From contig NZ_JBBUKT010000012.1 in the NCBI RefSeq assembly GCF_038066715.1, positions 62,001 through 126,000 of the forward strand: a stretch of DNA of 64,000 bases. Direction: 5' to 3'. Shown here one piece after another: positions 6,703 through 14,073 of the stretch. How positions within the stretch are numbered: the stretch's first letter is position 1; each line of letters starts with the position of its first letter. The position numbers were made by a program, and so were the translations under genes. The notes beneath the pieces were generated by a model. The model made no database searches. It had not been told where the DNA came from and saw only the letters and a program-made list of their open reading frames with translations. This DNA is from Luteolibacter sp. Y139. Its GTDB lineage: Bacteria > Verrucomicrobiota > Verrucomicrobiia > Verrucomicrobiales > Akkermansiaceae.

Positions 6703-8313
6703 GTGAAACAACCCTTCCGCCTTGCCGTGCTTGCGCTGGCGTTGCTGACGCCAGCCCGGGGACTGGTCATCCGCAACTACAACGCCGCCCTGCACAATCG
6801 CTTCTCTTCCGGCTTTCCCGGTAATCCGGTGATGAATGCCGGCTTCCTTCATGGTGCCGCGAAGTTCACCGGCGTGGGATGGTGGTACATCAGTGGCAAT
6901 CCGAGCGCGAGCGACGTCCAGTTCACGCTCGTTTCACCCCGTCACGTCCTGTGCGTGCGACACCATGCAGGCAACTTCAGCGGTGGGAACCAGCTGGTGA
7001 GATTCCTCGGCTCGGACAACCAAGTCTACACCCGGACCATTCAGCCCTTCACGAACATCGTGGATGGTACTGATAGCGTGGACCTGGCCATCGTTTCGCT
7101 GTCGTCGCCCTTGCCCGCAACCGTCAAGCGGATGCGCTACCGGAACAACCGGACCGAAGGGCAGTTCCAGAACGACACCGTCATGGTCCTAGGAAAAAAC
7201 CCGGTCAGCGGCAACTCCGTCACGGGTGGTACGTCCGCGATCGGTGGTTTCCTAGACGCCGTCTATCCTCCCTACTCCGACAACACCCGCATGTTCCACT
7301 TCGACTACACGGTGGCGAGCGGTGGTGGTGACGATTGCTACTATGGGCCAGGATCGGGGGATTCCAGTAGCCCGGTCTTCGAGGACTACAATGGCGAGCC
7401 GGCATTGGTCGGGCTCGCTGCCGTGTTCGATGATGAGGATCCCGACACGTACTATAGCTTCTGTACGTTCATTCCCCACTACATCACCCATCTGGATGCG
7501 ATCCTGAATCCTGCCGGCTATCGCATGCGCCCGGCCGATTATACGGCCACCACGCTGTCGCTCGCTTCGGCCGCATCTCCGGGCACGCTTCGCCAAGCTC
7601 ACCCGGGCAGTTTCACCTTCACGCTGGGAAATACCGGCGGCCAGACCACCGGGAACGCAGAGCTCACGCTCGTCTTCGATCCGGCTGAAGCCCCGAACTC
7701 GTTGAGTGCGCCGGGCTGGGTGGTGGAGTCGATGGGCGGCGGCGTGTGGTCGGTCCGCAAGGCGGTCATGTCCGCTGGTGATAGCATTGTGGCCACCGCT
7801 ACTTGGACGTCGTTGCCGGCCGTGGCAGCGCTGAATGTGAATGTGACCGTGGAATCCGACACCACCTCCACGACCACTTCGCAGCCTTCGTTCACACTGC
7901 TGCCATCCTATGCGGCGTGGGCAGCAGGATTGACCGAGGCCGCGGAGACCGACGATCCGGACGATGACGGACTGGAGAACCTGCTCGAGTATGCCTTCGG
8001 CGGGAATGCGGAGAACGGCCGCATGCTGATGCCTGCGGGACATCCGCTGCGGCCGGTGCTTTCGGTCGCGGGCGGGACGGTCACGCTCTCCTACCCGGAG
8101 CGCAGCGATGCCGTAGTACGAGGACTCTCGTACGTCGTGGAGACGGCCACGTCTCCGGCTTCGCTTCCCGGGGCGACGGCGTTGCCGGTGGGGGCTGCCT
8201 CCTCGACCGCGCCCTACGCGCCGGCCGAAGCGGGCTTCGTGAAGCGCACGATCACCTGGCCGTCCGATGGCCCGCGGCGCTTCGCCCGGGTGAAGGTGAC
8301 GCTTTCCGAGTGA
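6703..8313 (+). CDS. Exported trypsin-like serine protease, first of a tandem pair
   Basis: A 536-residue protein starting at GTG, with a signal peptide over residues 1-20. A chymotrypsin-fold catalytic triad can be proposed: H87 in SPRHVLCVRH, D127 in DSVDLAIVSL, and S221 in SGDSSSPVF, a variant of GDSGGP. From about 285 follows a CARDB-like beta domain (SFTFTLGNTGGQTTG). From about 405 comes a verrucomicrobial C-terminal module with a DDPDDDGLENLLEYAFGG segment and a beta-rich end (ARVKVTLSE). The fold assignment is by motif; substrate is unknown. The next gene is a close paralogue. Confidence 0.75.
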   Translation: MKQPFRLAVLALALLTPARGLVIRNYNAALHNRFSSGFPGNPVMNAGFLHGAAKFTGVGWWYISGNPSASDVQFTLVSPRHVLCVRHHAGNFSGGNQLVRFLGSDNQVYTRTIQPFTNIVDGTDSVDLAIVSLSSPLPATVKRMRYRNNRTEGQFQNDTVMVLGKNPVSGNSVTGGTSAIGGFLDAVYPPYSDNTRMFHFDYTVASGGGDDCYYGPGSGDSSSPVFEDYNGEPALVGLAAVFDDEDPDTYYSFCTFIPHYITHLDAILNPAGYRMRPADYTATTLSLASAASPGTLRQAHPGSFTFTLGNTGGQTTGNAELTLVFDPAEAPNSLSAPGWVVESMGGGVWSVRKAVMSAGDSIVATATWTSLPAVAALNVNVTVESDTTSTTTSQPSFTLLPSYAAWAAGLTEAAETDDPDDDGLENLLEYAFGGNAENGRMLMPAGHPLRPVLSVAGGTVTLSYPERSDAVVRGLSYVVETATSPASLPGATALPVGAASSTAPYAPAEAGFVKRTITWPSDGPRRFARVKVTLSE

Positions 8314-8453
8314 GGGTCTTTTCTGCTGCTTCGCTCCGGCTGGAGGGAGCTGGCGGAGGCGAGCTGGCCTCCCCACGGCGGGCCCACATTGTTTGCAACT
8401 GTCACAACATCAGGCTGGTGCAGCGGCTTCGGTTAGGTTAATTGTCCGCCGCT

Positions 8454-10061
8454 GTGAAATACCCTCTCCCTTTTTTGGCGGCCTTGGCGTGCGCTCTCCC
8501 GGCGCATGGCCTGATCCTCCGAAGTTATAATTCCGCCCAACATGATCGCTTCTCATCGGGTTTCCCAAACAACCCGGTGATGAACCCGACTTTCATCCAC
8601 AATGCCTCCCGGTTCACCGGAGTGGGCTGGTGGTACATCAGCGGAAATCCGTCGGCGAGCGATGTGCAGTTAACGGCGATCTCGCCCCGGCACATCATCT
8701 CGGTCCGGCACTTGTCCGGTAACTTTACCGGCGGAAACCAGTCCGTCCGCTTCCTGGGTTCCGACAATCAGGTCCAGACCCGGACCATCCTTCCCTTTAC
8801 CAACATCCTGAACGGCACGGATGTCGTGGATCTCTCGGTCGCTGAATTGTCCTCACCGCTTCCCGCCACGGTGGTTCCCATCCGCTATTGCAACAACCAG
8901 ACCGAGGTGCAGCTCACCGGCGACACCATCATGGTGCTCGGCAAACATGGCACCACCGGAACTTCGGCCTGCGGAGGAAAGGGCGTCATCGCGGGTTTCA
9001 CCGACCTGTCCTACACGCCTTACTCCAGTAACACGCGGATGTTCCACTTTGACTACGTGACGGGCCCGGGAGTTGTGGATGATTGTTACTACGGCCCATC
9101 GTCGGGGGATTCCAGCAGCCCGATCTTCGTCGAGTACAACAGTCAACCGGCGCTGGTCGGTGTCGCCACCGTCGTTTCCAATCCCAGCCCCCTCGTCTAT
9201 CAGAGCTATTGCACCTCCGTACAGAGCTACATCGGGCAGCTGGATGCGATCCTGAATCCGGCCGGCTACCGCATGCGGCCGGCCCAATACACGGCGACCG
9301 CCCTGTCGCTCGCCTCGTCAGCTGCTGCCGGCACGGCGCGACAAGGTCACCCGGCCAGCTTCACCTTCACTCTCGGAAACACCGGCGGACAAACCACCGG
9401 AAGCGTCGCCCTCACCCTCGCCTTCAATCCGGCCGAAGCTCCGAACTCGGTGAGTGCCCCCGGCTGGGTCGTCGAGCCGATGGGCGGCGGCGTGTGGTCT
9501 GTCCGCAAGGCCGTCATGTCAGCGGGCAATAGCATCGTGGCCACGGCGAACTGGGCATCGCTGCCCGCCGTGGCATCGCTGGGAGTAAACGTAACCGTGG
9601 AATCCGACACCACGTCCACCACCAGTTCGACTTCGTCCTTCACCGTGCTGCCATCCTACGCCGCGTGGGCCGCGGGTCTGAGCGAGGCTGGCGAAGGCGA
9701 TGATCCCGACGATGACGGGATGGAGAACCTCCTCGAGTATGCCTTCGGCGGAAATGCGGAAAACGGCACGATGGCGCTGCCGGCCGGTCATCCGCTGCGG
9801 CCGGTGCTTTCGGTCGCGGGCGGCAATGTTACCCTGACTTACCCCGAGCGCAGCGATGCCGGAGTACGAGGACTCTCGTACCTCGTGGAGACCGCCACCT
9901 CTCCGGCTTCCCTTCCCGGAGCTACGACCTTGCCAGCCGGAGCCGTATCCTCGACCGCAGCCTATGTGCCGGCCGAAGTTGGCTTCGTGAAGCGCACCAT
10001 CACCTGGCCATCCGATGGTCCACGACGCCATGCGCGAGTGAAGGTGGTGCTTGCGGAGTGA
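8454..10061 (+). CDS. Exported trypsin-like serine protease, second of a tandem pair
   Basis: A 535-residue paralogue of the preceding gene, alike over its whole length and collinear. The proposed triad keeps the same spacing: H86 in SPRHIISVRH, D126 in DVVDLSVAEL and S220 in SGDSSSPIF. The C-terminal module (DDPDDDGMENLLEYAFGG to ARVKVVLAE) is also shared. The GTG at 8454 mirrors the GTG start of the first copy and places the hydrophobic signal peptide (LPFLAALACALPAHG) at the N-terminus; a TTG at 8442 would add four residues. It converges on the next gene with only 3 bases between the stops. Confidence 0.75.
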   Translation: MKYPLPFLAALACALPAHGLILRSYNSAQHDRFSSGFPNNPVMNPTFIHNASRFTGVGWWYISGNPSASDVQLTAISPRHIISVRHLSGNFTGGNQSVRFLGSDNQVQTRTILPFTNILNGTDVVDLSVAELSSPLPATVVPIRYCNNQTEVQLTGDTIMVLGKHGTTGTSACGGKGVIAGFTDLSYTPYSSNTRMFHFDYVTGPGVVDDCYYGPSSGDSSSPIFVEYNSQPALVGVATVVSNPSPLVYQSYCTSVQSYIGQLDAILNPAGYRMRPAQYTATALSLASSAAAGTARQGHPASFTFTLGNTGGQTTGSVALTLAFNPAEAPNSVSAPGWVVEPMGGGVWSVRKAVMSAGNSIVATANWASLPAVASLGVNVTVESDTTSTTSSTSSFTVLPSYAAWAAGLSEAGEGDDPDDDGMENLLEYAFGGNAENGTMALPAGHPLRPVLSVAGGNVTLTYPERSDAGVRGLSYLVETATSPASLPGATTLPAGAVSSTAAYVPAEVGFVKRTITWPSDGPRRHARVKVVLAE

Positions 10062-10064
10062 GGG

Positions 10065-12032
10065 TTATCGCAAGGCGTCCAGCAGCGTCCGGCGGAGAGG
10101 CTCATTCAATCGCCGCTCCAGGACGGTCATGCCACTGCCTTCCGGGTCGCGGCGCATTAGCTCGTCTTTTGCCATCCAGGTCTGCTCTGCCTTTCGGAGG
10201 GCGGGCGTGGCCACGAGCAGGAGGATCGCCGCCGTCGCGGCAGCAGGGAGGATCGCACGGACCAGCAACTGGACGCCCAGGGAGTTTTCGCGAGAGAAGA
10301 ACACGATCACCACCGCCTCCCACAACAGCCATAGCAGGGCAATGCCACCCGCCGCACTGCCGAATAGCAGGAACTTCTCCTGATTCGACGGGAGGTATCG
10401 GACGATTCCCTGCACGGGAATGAACAGCGCCGCGACGATCGCCATGGTCCAGCCCATCCACATGCGATCCGGCCGCAGCGCCAAGAACGCCCCGCGCTTC
10501 GCCCAGCGCCAGCGCGCCACTTGAACGATCATGACGGCTGCAAACACCAAGCCTCCGAGGTCTTGCGAAAGCCACGGCTGCATCAATGGAAGCTGACCAA
10601 AATGGAAATAGGTGAGCCCGATATCGCGGCAACCGAGCGGCGACAGATGCACGATGCCTAGCCACCAGAGGAGCGGGAGACCCACTCCAAGCCCTAACAG
10701 CCACGCGGAATCCGAAACACGCCACAGGGGCATCAACCCCCGCGCCAAGCCACCGGCCAATCTCCGGCGCGATACTTCCATCAAGCATCCGGCGACCATG
10801 AGGAAGAAGGCAAGCACTCCTGCCACTGCGGCAAAGCGGTCAGCGACCGCATACTCCGCCATGCGCCCCGGCTCGATGTCTTCCGGAGCGAATTCATCGG
10901 CAAATCCATCCAGCCAGAGACGGGCGAAGCTGCTCGAGGGGCGCCCGAGCCCGCCTGACGAGCGCGCCTTCTTCGCTGCCGCAAGCAGCTGCTTGTCCGT
11001 ATCGTAAAGCCGCTCCAGCCACTCTGCTTCTGCGGTCACGCCTAGCGCGCGGCATTTGGCAGCCAGCCGGGGTATCACACTTCTTATCAAGCCGACGGAC
11101 ATGTATCCATTGGACGGACTGTCCAAAATCATCATCACGATGTTCCGGAAGTCCTTCATCAGTCGCTCCAACCCTTCCTTGTCGCCCGAAGTCACCAGGC
11201 GATCGGCCCTGACATCGATGGCTCTCAGGATACTGTAGAGATTCACCGAGTCGCCGCCGGCGATCTGGAGTAGCTGCTGCTCCATGTAAGCGCTCACCAG
11301 CGTGTTTTCCCTTCGGAATGACCGGAGCTCGCGGTCCTGGACGACGGCGGCATTTGACCGGCAGAACTCACGCGAAGCCGCATCGCTGAAGTAGTCGAGC
11401 GCCTGCTGGAAACGTGGTTCGTCCGTGACGGTGTGGACGCCGCGAGTGCTACTGATCGATTTCTCCGCGAGCTGGTTGGCGGCGGAGATGCCCCACCAGG
11501 CGTTGTCAGGATCAAGTGCCTGCCACTTGGACCGGTAGTCAGGCGGGAGGATTTCCTTGGGGTGCAGGTAGCTGAACCATCTCGCGTGAAATCGCCCATA
11601 CGCAGGATTGTCCGGAGCTTCTGCCAGCAACGAATCGACCTCGCGGGCCCAGGCTTTCTGATTGGTGTAGTAGATGGTCCGCAACGGCACGTCATCGGCG
11701 GCCGGACCGAGTGCGGCGAGCAAGCGGTCGATATGATTCCCGTCGTAGCCTTGATGATGAACGGGCGTTAGCAACCTGGCCTCCTTCCAGTGGGAAGGAA
11801 TCAGGAAAGCGAGCGCCGCGACCAAGCCAACCACCACCAGACTCGCCAGGAGCGGGAATCGCCACGGCGGGGCCGGCTTCGAGGATGCCAGTCTCGCGAC
11901 GGCGTGTGGGACTTCGCTTTCTCCACCGGCGTGGGCGATCCTGGCGGCAAGCTCATGCCCGGCTGCTTCACGTTCCGGCTCGCCGACAGCCCGTGTCGCC
12001 AAGGAAATGAATCGAGCCGTTTCTTCCGCCAT
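10065..12032 (-). CDS. Multi-pass membrane protein of unknown function
   Basis: A 655-residue protein I do not recognise. The N-terminal 50 residues are polar (MAEETARFISLATRAVGEP) and are followed by a membrane helix near 60-78. A long soluble, probably helical region spans about 85-400 and contains W/Y-rich segments. The C-terminal part has roughly six further hydrophobic helices (about 405-425, 445-465, 495-515, 540-560, 570-590 and 605-625). The layout suggests an extracytoplasmic domain held between membrane segments. No catalytic motif stands out, and neither neighbour gives a functional hint. Confidence 0.6.
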   Translation of the reverse strand: MAEETARFISLATRAVGEPEREAAGHELAARIAHAGGESEVPHAVARLASSKPAPPWRFPLLASLVVVGLVAALAFLIPSHWKEARLLTPVHHQGYDGNHIDRLLAALGPAADDVPLRTIYYTNQKAWAREVDSLLAEAPDNPAYGRFHARWFSYLHPKEILPPDYRSKWQALDPDNAWWGISAANQLAEKSISSTRGVHTVTDEPRFQQALDYFSDAASREFCRSNAAVVQDRELRSFRRENTLVSAYMEQQLLQIAGGDSVNLYSILRAIDVRADRLVTSGDKEGLERLMKDFRNIVMMILDSPSNGYMSVGLIRSVIPRLAAKCRALGVTAEAEWLERLYDTDKQLLAAAKKARSSGGLGRPSSSFARLWLDGFADEFAPEDIEPGRMAEYAVADRFAAVAGVLAFFLMVAGCLMEVSRRRLAGGLARGLMPLWRVSDSAWLLGLGVGLPLLWWLGIVHLSPLGCRDIGLTYFHFGQLPLMQPWLSQDLGGLVFAAVMIVQVARWRWAKRGAFLALRPDRMWMGWTMAIVAALFIPVQGIVRYLPSNQEKFLLFGSAAGGIALLWLLWEAVVIVFFSRENSLGVQLLVRAILPAAATAAILLLVATPALRKAEQTWMAKDELMRRDPEGSGMTVLERRLNEPLRRTLLDALR

Positions 12033-12083: not shown

Positions 12084-13961
12084 TCACGGCTGGATTTCCA
12101 CGCGGTCGCCGAGTTCGGTGAGGGCGAAAAGCTTCTGGGCATTCCCCTCGGGGACGCGAATGCAACCGTGAGATGCCGGATAACCGGGGACGACGCCTTG
12201 ATGGAAGCCGAAGTCTTCACAGCTCAGGCGCTGGAAGCATGGCATGCTCGCATCGTAGAGCGTGGAGGTCCACGTGCGATACTTGTTGGTAATGGCGAAG
12301 GTGCCGGTGCGGGTGGCGAAGCCCTTGCGGCCGGTAGAGATGGCCGTCTTGAAGAGCTCCAGGCCGGAGGAGTCGTATAATGTCGCGCGCTGGTCGGAGA
12401 GGTCGACGACGATGCGGCGTTGCTCGACCACGGGATCCTTCCCGAGCAGCACGCGCATCATCTTCACGTCACTCTTCCGCGCGGCGATATTGATCGGCCA
12501 CATGTGATTGCGCTTGGTCCAGACGCTGGAGCGCGCACCGGCGGCGAGCAGGGCGCGGGCGGTATCGGCGCAGCCGCTGTCGGCGGCGAGCATGATGGGC
12601 GTGACGTTGGTATCGTTCTTCAGCAGCCAGCGCACGGTGCCACCGCGGACCAGCTTGATGAAGGAGTCCGAGACCTTGGCAGGAAGCGCTGCATTCGGAT
12701 CGATGCCGCGCTTGAGCAGCTCCTTCACAATGCGGGGCTGGCGCAGGACGATGGCGAGATACAGCGGCGACTGGCCTTCGGCGACCGGCTGGTCCGGCCG
12801 CGCGCCATGGGAAAGCAAGCGAACGGCGCTACGCGAGTCTCCCTCGCGGATCGCCAGGCCCAGCGGTGTATCCAGAAACGGCGCGGGCAAGGTGGTCGGC
12901 TGTCCGCCATGCGCGGCAATCACCTCGGCATGGTAGCCGCGGTTCCTACGACAGGCCTCGTAGTAAAGCGATCGACCATCCGCGCCGTAGCAGAGGAAGA
13001 GGTGGAGGAAATCCACGCGATCATCGTCAAGCGCCGCCTCAAGGGGCCGGCGGCCGCGGGCGTCCCGGGTCTCCGGCGAGACGCCGAGCGAAAGCAGCAG
13101 CCGGCAGGCATCGATCTCACGATGGCTGTAGGCTTTCCAAAGGGCATTTCCCCAGGAGCCATCGAGCGGGCGGGCACCGACGGCAGCGAGGGTTTTAGCA
13201 AGGGCGAGGTCGTGGGAATCGATGGCCGTCTCCAGCGGCGTGCGGCCGGAGCGATCGGGTAGATTCGGATCGGAACCGGCCTTCACCAGCGGCGCAGCGA
13301 GGTCGCGCCAGTTTTTCCGGAGGGCGGCGACCAGGGATGATTCGTTCGCGGCATTGACCGCCGCGGCATCCGCGCCGAGCGATAGCAGCTCTTCCATGAG
13401 GTCGCGACGACCGGCCTCGATCGCGACGTGGAGCAGCGGATTTCCGGCGGCATCCTTCTGGTGAGGATCGGCCCCGCCTTCCATGAGACGACGGACGAAG
13501 GCGAGGCGGCCATTGCGGATCGCCCACGGCAGCACCTTGTCACCATCCGGCGTGAGACCTTCCGGCGGAGCACCGGCATCGAGCAGGCGATCCGCCATGG
13601 CGGTCTCGCCCTTGACCACGGAAAGGGAAACGGGCGTGACGCCCGAGGGATTCGCCGTCGTAAGGTCGGCGCCATGCTCGATCAGCTCCCAGGCGATGGC
13701 CGGGTAGCCGCGATCGATGGCGAGGTGGAGCGGTGAATTTCCCGCAGCATCGCGCTGGCCAGAGTAGACCTGCGCCTGGAGGAGAAGCTTGGCGAGGCTG
13801 GTGTCGCCATTCTGCACCGCGGTGAGAAGCGACGCCCCGGAGGCCTCGATATGGCGCTTTTCCAGCTCTCGCATGGCTTCGCGCTGCGGATTCTTGCACG
13901 CCGTCACGGACACCGCGAGCAAGGCGGTGACAGCGATCCGGATGGCGGAGCGGGTTAACAT
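12084..13961 (-). CDS. Ankyrin-repeat lipoprotein with C-terminal L,D-transpeptidase (YkuD) domain
   Basis: A 625-residue predicted lipoprotein. Residues 1-22 form a lipobox signal (LLAVSVTAC, C22). About residues 40-500 hold roughly a dozen ankyrin-type repeats (for example GNSPLHLAIDRGY, GRTPLETAIDSHD, GQSPLYLAIVLRQ). The last 115 residues are a YkuD domain that begins RRIVVDLSDQRATLYD and ends with the catalytic SHGCIRVP motif (H598, C600, R602). YkuD enzymes make 3-3 crosslinks in peptidoglycan or attach proteins to it. The ankyrin array may act as a periplasmic docking scaffold. ATG at 13961 is preferred to 13985 because it places the signal peptide at the N-terminus. Confidence 0.85.
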   Translation of the reverse strand: MLTRSAIRIAVTALLAVSVTACKNPQREAMRELEKRHIEASGASLLTAVQNGDTSLAKLLLQAQVYSGQRDAAGNSPLHLAIDRGYPAIAWELIEHGADLTTANPSGVTPVSLSVVKGETAMADRLLDAGAPPEGLTPDGDKVLPWAIRNGRLAFVRRLMEGGADPHQKDAAGNPLLHVAIEAGRRDLMEELLSLGADAAAVNAANESSLVAALRKNWRDLAAPLVKAGSDPNLPDRSGRTPLETAIDSHDLALAKTLAAVGARPLDGSWGNALWKAYSHREIDACRLLLSLGVSPETRDARGRRPLEAALDDDRVDFLHLFLCYGADGRSLYYEACRRNRGYHAEVIAAHGGQPTTLPAPFLDTPLGLAIREGDSRSAVRLLSHGARPDQPVAEGQSPLYLAIVLRQPRIVKELLKRGIDPNAALPAKVSDSFIKLVRGGTVRWLLKNDTNVTPIMLAADSGCADTARALLAAGARSSVWTKRNHMWPINIAARKSDVKMMRVLLGKDPVVEQRRIVVDLSDQRATLYDSSGLELFKTAISTGRKGFATRTGTFAITNKYRTWTSTLYDASMPCFQRLSCEDFGFHQGVVPGYPASHGCIRVPEGNAQKLFALTELGDRVEIQP

Positions 13962-14073
13962 TGGGCGACCGGAATCACTTAGCACGCGTCGGTTGCGCGG
14001 ACAAGATCCGACGCTAACAGAGATCCAAAATGGATTTCATGCATGCTGCAATTCGGCGAGGCCAGCCCTGACA

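Follow-up and report, generated by a model that had tools for sequence, protein, structure and literature searches.

What does a cell-wall enzyme do with a long array of ankyrin repeats? The question is raised by a gene in a 64,000-nucleotide stretch of DNA from Luteolibacter sp. Y139 (hereafter the window, meaning the whole stretch analysed, to which all positions refer). The gene lies on the minus strand (12084..13961) and encodes a protein of 625 amino acids, with an ATG start at 13961 and a stop codon at 12084-12086. An alternative in-frame GTG at 13985, upstream of the ATG, would give 633 amino acids; the ATG is preferred because it places a standard signal peptide and the lipobox VTA/C22 (residues 1-22; 13896..13961, minus), whose Cys22 is invariant in a 19-row alignment. 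The ORF is not a chance one, since an orthologue is present in all 18 genus genomes at E <= 1e-60. Pfam identifies both Ank_2 (168.4 bits against a cut-off of 27.3, 5.3e-50) and YkuD (60.5 bits against a curated cut-off of 23.4, E 3.6e-16). The initial annotation had proposed an ankyrin array and an L,D-transpeptidase in one lipoprotein, with an intact SHGCIRVP motif, and both statements hold: the motif occupies residues 597-604 (12150..12173, minus), with the catalytic Cys600 at 12162-12164.

Structure prediction, suggested at the outset as a check on whether the repeats fold as ankyrins, models the array (residues 30-506; 12444..13874, minus) as an ankyrin solenoid. The first AlphaFold model, whose input was three sequences (the window protein, L009 and L010), contains 15 helix-turn-helix pairs between residues 42 and 506, with a mean pLDDT near 87 over residues 30-330, and a Foldseek search with it finds that the repeats resemble DARPins and ankyrin-B. 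The original count of roughly a dozen repeats was of the right order and slightly low: a repeat profile built from the protein's own family gives 11 matches (row L076) and the model gives about 15. The solenoid begins a few residues past the lipid anchor and stops a few residues before YkuD, with no long linker at either end, so that the order along the protein reads anchor, arm, enzyme.

The catalytic domain (residues 515-623; 12093..12419, minus) carries the His and SxGCxR catalytic motif. In an alignment of 50 homologues, H587, S597, G599, C600 and R602, together with S566 and R578, are invariant in every sequence. YkuD falls mostly below pLDDT 50 in the first AlphaFold model; a second model, restricted to residues 418-625 and built with another 18 YkuD rows, places it at pLDDT 68-92 per 10-residue block. 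Repeats 13-15 are mostly below 50 in this second model. Compared with solved L,D-transpeptidases, the YkuD model matches 5bmq of Stackebrandtia best (Z 18.4, rmsd 1.5 over 112 residues), tied with Mycobacterium enzymes. The fold (Z 17-18) and catalytic motif are thus common to the YkuD L,D-transpeptidases (PF03734: 5bmq, LdtMt1 and LdtMt2 of Mycobacterium, B. subtilis YkuD); the ankyrin repeats distinguish the window protein, and no title among the structure matches listed names ankyrin. The closest YkuD sequence subgroup found is that of stand-alone L,D-transpeptidases of Alphaproteobacteria and others (NCBIfam PRK06132 / PRK12472). All 50 homologues match the PRK06132.1-2 models, and the window protein scores below the curated NCBIfam cut-offs for PRK06132 and PRK12472.

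ElsL, another YkuD protein, has orthologues reported in all orders of Verrucomicrobia (in a section of PMC8649774). It is leaderless and cytoplasmic, whereas the window protein carries a lipoprotein signal and ankyrin repeats; an ElsL-type protein is therefore ruled out by the signal peptide and lipobox, and by the lack of an ElsL-model match for the window protein. With its lipoprotein signal, ankyrin fold and intact YkuD active site, the window protein is probably an exported peptidoglycan enzyme carried on a protein-binding scaffold. YkuD occurs at 13 places in this 7.1 Mb genome (G000), a high number of L,D-transpeptidase-like genes.

The initial annotation held that ankyrin repeats are uncommon in periplasmic cell-wall enzymes. 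In the class surveyed here, probably Verrucomicrobiae, the fusion is not rare but widespread. Ank_2 and YkuD are both found at E <= 0.001 in all 50 sampled homologues (loci L061-L110, of which L076 is the window gene itself and is represented by the window row). A profile of repeats 12-15 plus YkuD matches 111 of 384 class genomes at E <= 1e-25. At least 69 of the 384, from 14 families, match across both repeats and YkuD (alignment starting at query position 44 or before and ending at 228 or beyond, counted among the matches listed); about seven candidates per genome were scored, which makes this a lower bound. In the window genome, only the window gene matches both parts among the matches listed for the profile with the last repeats. 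Within the genus, 17 of the 18 genomes have a single match and the remaining one (G015) has two non-overlapping pieces; the match in G012 spans only query residues 360-625. In a phylum-wide draw of 288 genomes, class included, all 18 matching genomes fall in the class, a result that, with nine candidates scored per genome, does not prove rarity outside it. Contig scanning with patterns from one protein reaches near relatives only. No match in the 23 plasmid records reaches 80% query coverage; in the 15 rows listed the alignment is confined to the YkuD side, at 38.8-49.5% identity. Similarly, alignment of the 80 viral-contig loci kept begins no earlier than profile residue 89 and lies mainly on the YkuD side.

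The family is also diverse. Ten of 19 further ankyrin-type proteins were scanned with Pfam and eight have Ank_2 and YkuD above cut-off. In two members of family f23 (L129 and L140) Ank_2 falls below it, which would fit degraded or divergent repeats. Genomes of genus g2 contain ORFs of 1051-1320 amino acids that end in YkuD (L122-L125), and the two scanned carry 11-12 Ank_2 stretches; this long type may be of separate origin. The YkuD-domain tree (77 sequences: 69 ankyrin-type, seven other YkuD of the window genome and one non-ankyrin relative; L007, the eighth fetched window-genome locus, was left out as it has no motif match) is poorly resolved and is compatible with one origin of the fusion or with several. 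Next to the ankyrin-YkuD ORF, loci L122, L123 and L124 have a further ORF of 1004-1225 amino acids, ankyrin-like by sequence in L122 and L123. Two g4 genomes (G104, locus L136, and G107, contig C10) have a second ankyrin-YkuD paralogue; that of L136 has an N-terminal membrane helix in place of the lipobox.

The enzyme and the repeat are each known; their fusion as a class-wide family is undescribed in the literature found. The architecture is common in the class, without a published characterisation that we could find. Searches for ankyrin with YkuD, transpeptidase, peptidoglycan, lipoprotein and Verrucomicrobia, in largely open-access literature, returned no published description, and the fusion is not described in the literature on diaminopimelate aminotransferase with transpeptidase, on Verrucomicrobia and Akkermansia walls, or on tethering. 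By term search, 'ankyrin' and 'Verrucomicrobi' are absent from the searchable text of a 2025 L,D-transpeptidase review (PMC12729407), and that of PMC3482391 and PMC8406291 contains no ankyrin-transpeptidase fusion. The ankyrin and YkuD entries in the relevant part of PMC12502724 are separate proteins.

Conservation varies along the arm. Among 19 sequences from the genus and g3, mean conservation is highest in repeats 4-5 (0.78 and 0.79) and 14-15 (0.76 and 0.80), compared with 0.60-0.71 in the rest. Across all 50 sequences only repeats 14-15 stand out (means of 0.60 and 0.58, against 0.34-0.48 for repeats 1-13). Because they are the most conserved repeats family-wide, repeats 14-15 (residues 450-506; 12444..12614, minus), which adjoin YkuD, appear to belong to the enzyme module. 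For the groove face as such, ankyrin consensus residues inflate the apparent conservation. Repeats 4-6 (residues 129-227; 13281..13577, minus) include W146, R149, H167 and W218, which we take to lie outside the ankyrin consensus and which are invariant in the 19 genus and g3 sequences. They are a candidate docking site, one not retained in many distant members, where the patch is weaker (W146 in 24 and W218 in 22 of the 50).

The number of repeats also changes. Estimated by length, it ranges from about 5 to about 33 across the class and is steady, at about 13.4-14.4, in 15 of the 16 genus loci measured. The exception is L071, from the smallest genome of the genus sample (G012, 3.3 Mb), which retains only about 4-5 repeats and has no recognised lipobox. 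Since repeat number varies so widely and the patch on repeats 4-6 is not kept throughout, a single partner common to all members is not to be expected.

The anchor is more variable than its position. In loci L061-L110 a lipobox was counted in 31 of 50 (30 by an automated rule with a start codon in range, plus L082 by motif), which leaves 19 without one by these rules. Several members of family f2 (for example, L089, L092 and L095) have one uncleaved N-terminal membrane helix. Judged from these N-termini, an anchor beside the array, lipid or helix, is a shared feature of the lipobox and helix-bearing homologues. The residue at +2 of the 31 lipoboxes is Arg or Lys in 13, Asp in nine, Ser in five and another residue in four; the window protein has Lys. 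Asp at +2 is an inner-membrane retention signal in E. coli. LolA is encoded in the window genome, so that delivery of the window protein to the outer membrane is possible. The initial annotation went further and proposed that the enzyme is held at the outer membrane, a location that the nine Asp +2 homologues and the uncleaved anchors of others do not support for the family.

The gene neighbourhood provides independent support for a role in peptidoglycan. Neighbour clustering, which worked on stop-to-stop frames and therefore picks up some spurious antisense ones in GC-rich DNA, first indicated one strongly conserved upstream gene in several genera. This is dapL, which the TIGR03542 model places independently in 115 of the 127 family genomes. 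The ankyrin-YkuD gene was listed in 47 family genomes, 40 of them with dapL located, and 14 of these 40 have dapL as the directly upstream neighbour on the same strand. The adjacency occurs in g3 (1/8), g4 (3/4), g5 (3/4), g8 (4/5) and g11 (3/3), and is absent in the window genus, g1 (0/12), and in g10 (0/3) and g13 (0/1). The adjoining dapL sits 1.3-2.0 kb from the YkuD match, and its stop codon is followed by a gap of 67-196 bases at the seven loci where this was measured. All 14 adjacencies may descend from one ancestral arrangement. DapL makes L,L-diaminopimelate, the precursor of the stem-peptide residue on which L,D-transpeptidases act, and it is for this reason that the adjacency bears on function. 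In Verrucomicrobium spinosum, DapL is reported as the sole route to diaminopimelate (in a part of PMC3681970).

Other neighbours are less constant. Among the neighbours listed, neither the ArsP_1 permease and DUF1980 genes upstream nor the 655-amino-acid membrane protein downstream is a conserved neighbour beyond close relatives. The initial annotation had named the giant exported proteins of the window as possible partners; no gene of that size recurs among the neighbour clusters within about 9 kb in relatives, and the suggestion is not borne out. The 655-amino-acid protein (10065-12032, minus; no Pfam match) lies directly downstream of the ankyrin-YkuD gene on the same strand, and a protein that resembles it by eye adjoins the gene in L010 (1807-3696). 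Further along are tandem paralogues on the plus strand (6703-8313 and 8442-10061) of 536 and 539 amino acids, secreted and trypsin-like in appearance, with no Pfam match; homologues of the pair are found close to the gene in other loci of the genus, for the most part immediately downstream and in convergent orientation. Both g5 loci (L078 and L081) have a gene downstream of the transpeptidase gene that reads from sequence as pyridoxamine-phosphate-oxidase-like.

The reading that we favour, and consider moderately probable, is a membrane-tethered L,D-transpeptidase whose ankyrin arm docks an envelope partner. The protein would leave the cytoplasm through Sec, receive a lipid on Cys22 and stay attached to the periplasmic face of a membrane. 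About 15 ankyrin repeats between the lipid anchor and the catalytic domain would then carry the enzyme on an arm. Cys600 of YkuD would attack meso-diaminopimelate in the stem peptide of peptidoglycan and form L,D bonds, by transpeptidation rather than hydrolysis, the outcome being either 3-3 cross-links or protein attachment. The partner, whether a substrate protein or a component of wall synthesis, would dock in the ankyrin groove, with repeats 4-6 as the most likely site, and this docking would decide where the bond is made.

A more specific version of this reading is attractive. It places the lipoprotein in the outer membrane, where a docked protein, either secreted or from that membrane itself, would become attached to peptidoglycan, in the way that LdtA/B/C attach Lpp in E. 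coli or Coxiella LDT2 attaches beta-barrel proteins (passages of PMC11841132). OutB of Dickeya, an inner-membrane protein, is a further tethering precedent (in part of PMC12274547). The window protein would be of the same activity class as E. coli LdtA/B/C, Coxiella LDT2 and Dickeya Ldt03/Ldt84, a docked protein substrate being one proposal made here; the difference lies in the ankyrin arm, none being mentioned for those enzymes in the relevant passages of PMC11841132 and PMC12274547. The Lys at +2, the LolA gene and the 13 YkuD places all suit this version, beta-barrel-tethering proteobacteria having 10 or more L,D-transpeptidases (according to a passage of PMC11841132). We nevertheless consider it rather unlikely in this specific form, as the Asp +2 lipoboxes and uncleaved anchors of homologues suit the inner membrane and no recurring outer-membrane substrate appears among the neighbours in general clustering, which was not a dedicated search.

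Alternatively, the array might bind nothing specific and merely set the reach from membrane to wall. The lack of a long linker at either end of the solenoid agrees with such a spacer, as does the steady repeat number within the genus (L071 excepted), and one protein of family f4 (L104) pairs few repeats with a long proline-rich stretch past the anchor. A spacer is nonetheless improbable. Arms of anything between about 5 and about 33 repeats occur in the class, and repeats 4-6 contain invariant residues outside the consensus; an arm that changes while the enzyme stays constant is easier to reconcile with partner choice than with a ruler of fixed length.

The enzyme itself might be an L,D-carboxypeptidase or a D-amino-acid exchange enzyme and not a cross-linker. 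Csd6 and Pgp2, YkuD proteins with carboxypeptidase activity, appear among the structural matches at lower rank (Z 13.5 and 12.8), and ElsL is a further YkuD protein with such activity (as described in part of PMC8649774). We regard this as highly doubtful, however, since the nearest folds are transpeptidases and the ElsL model matches only one of the 50 homologues, which is not the window protein. Finally, an L,D-transpeptidase is listed as the antibacterial toxin EAT6 of a contractile injection system (in an excerpt of PMC8213781), but delivery of the present protein as a toxin is very improbable given one match per genome in nearly all genus genomes, the lipobox or membrane anchor, and the lack of a recurrent small immunity-like neighbour in general clustering, which is not a dedicated test. 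The ruler, carboxypeptidase and toxin readings are all less likely than a docking transpeptidase.

L,D-transpeptidases affect envelope stiffness, beta-lactam tolerance and links between proteins and the wall, but little is known of how each of them reaches its site. In a little-studied class, a conserved family with an evident protein-docking arm offers a direct handle on this problem: the bait domain is contained within the enzyme. The family suggests, too, that in free-living bacteria ankyrin repeats are ordinary scaffolds of the envelope, beyond their use in host-directed effectors. The docking reading can be extended, speculatively and with considerable doubt, to a dedicated family, in this class, of ankyrin-docking L,D-transpeptidases that would fix groove-selected envelope proteins covalently to peptidoglycan, in some lineages apparently co-expressed with diaminopimelate synthesis, the groove being exchangeable and the enzyme constant. 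If true, this would be a tethering system peculiar to the lineage, its docking arm evolving and its enzyme remaining the same.
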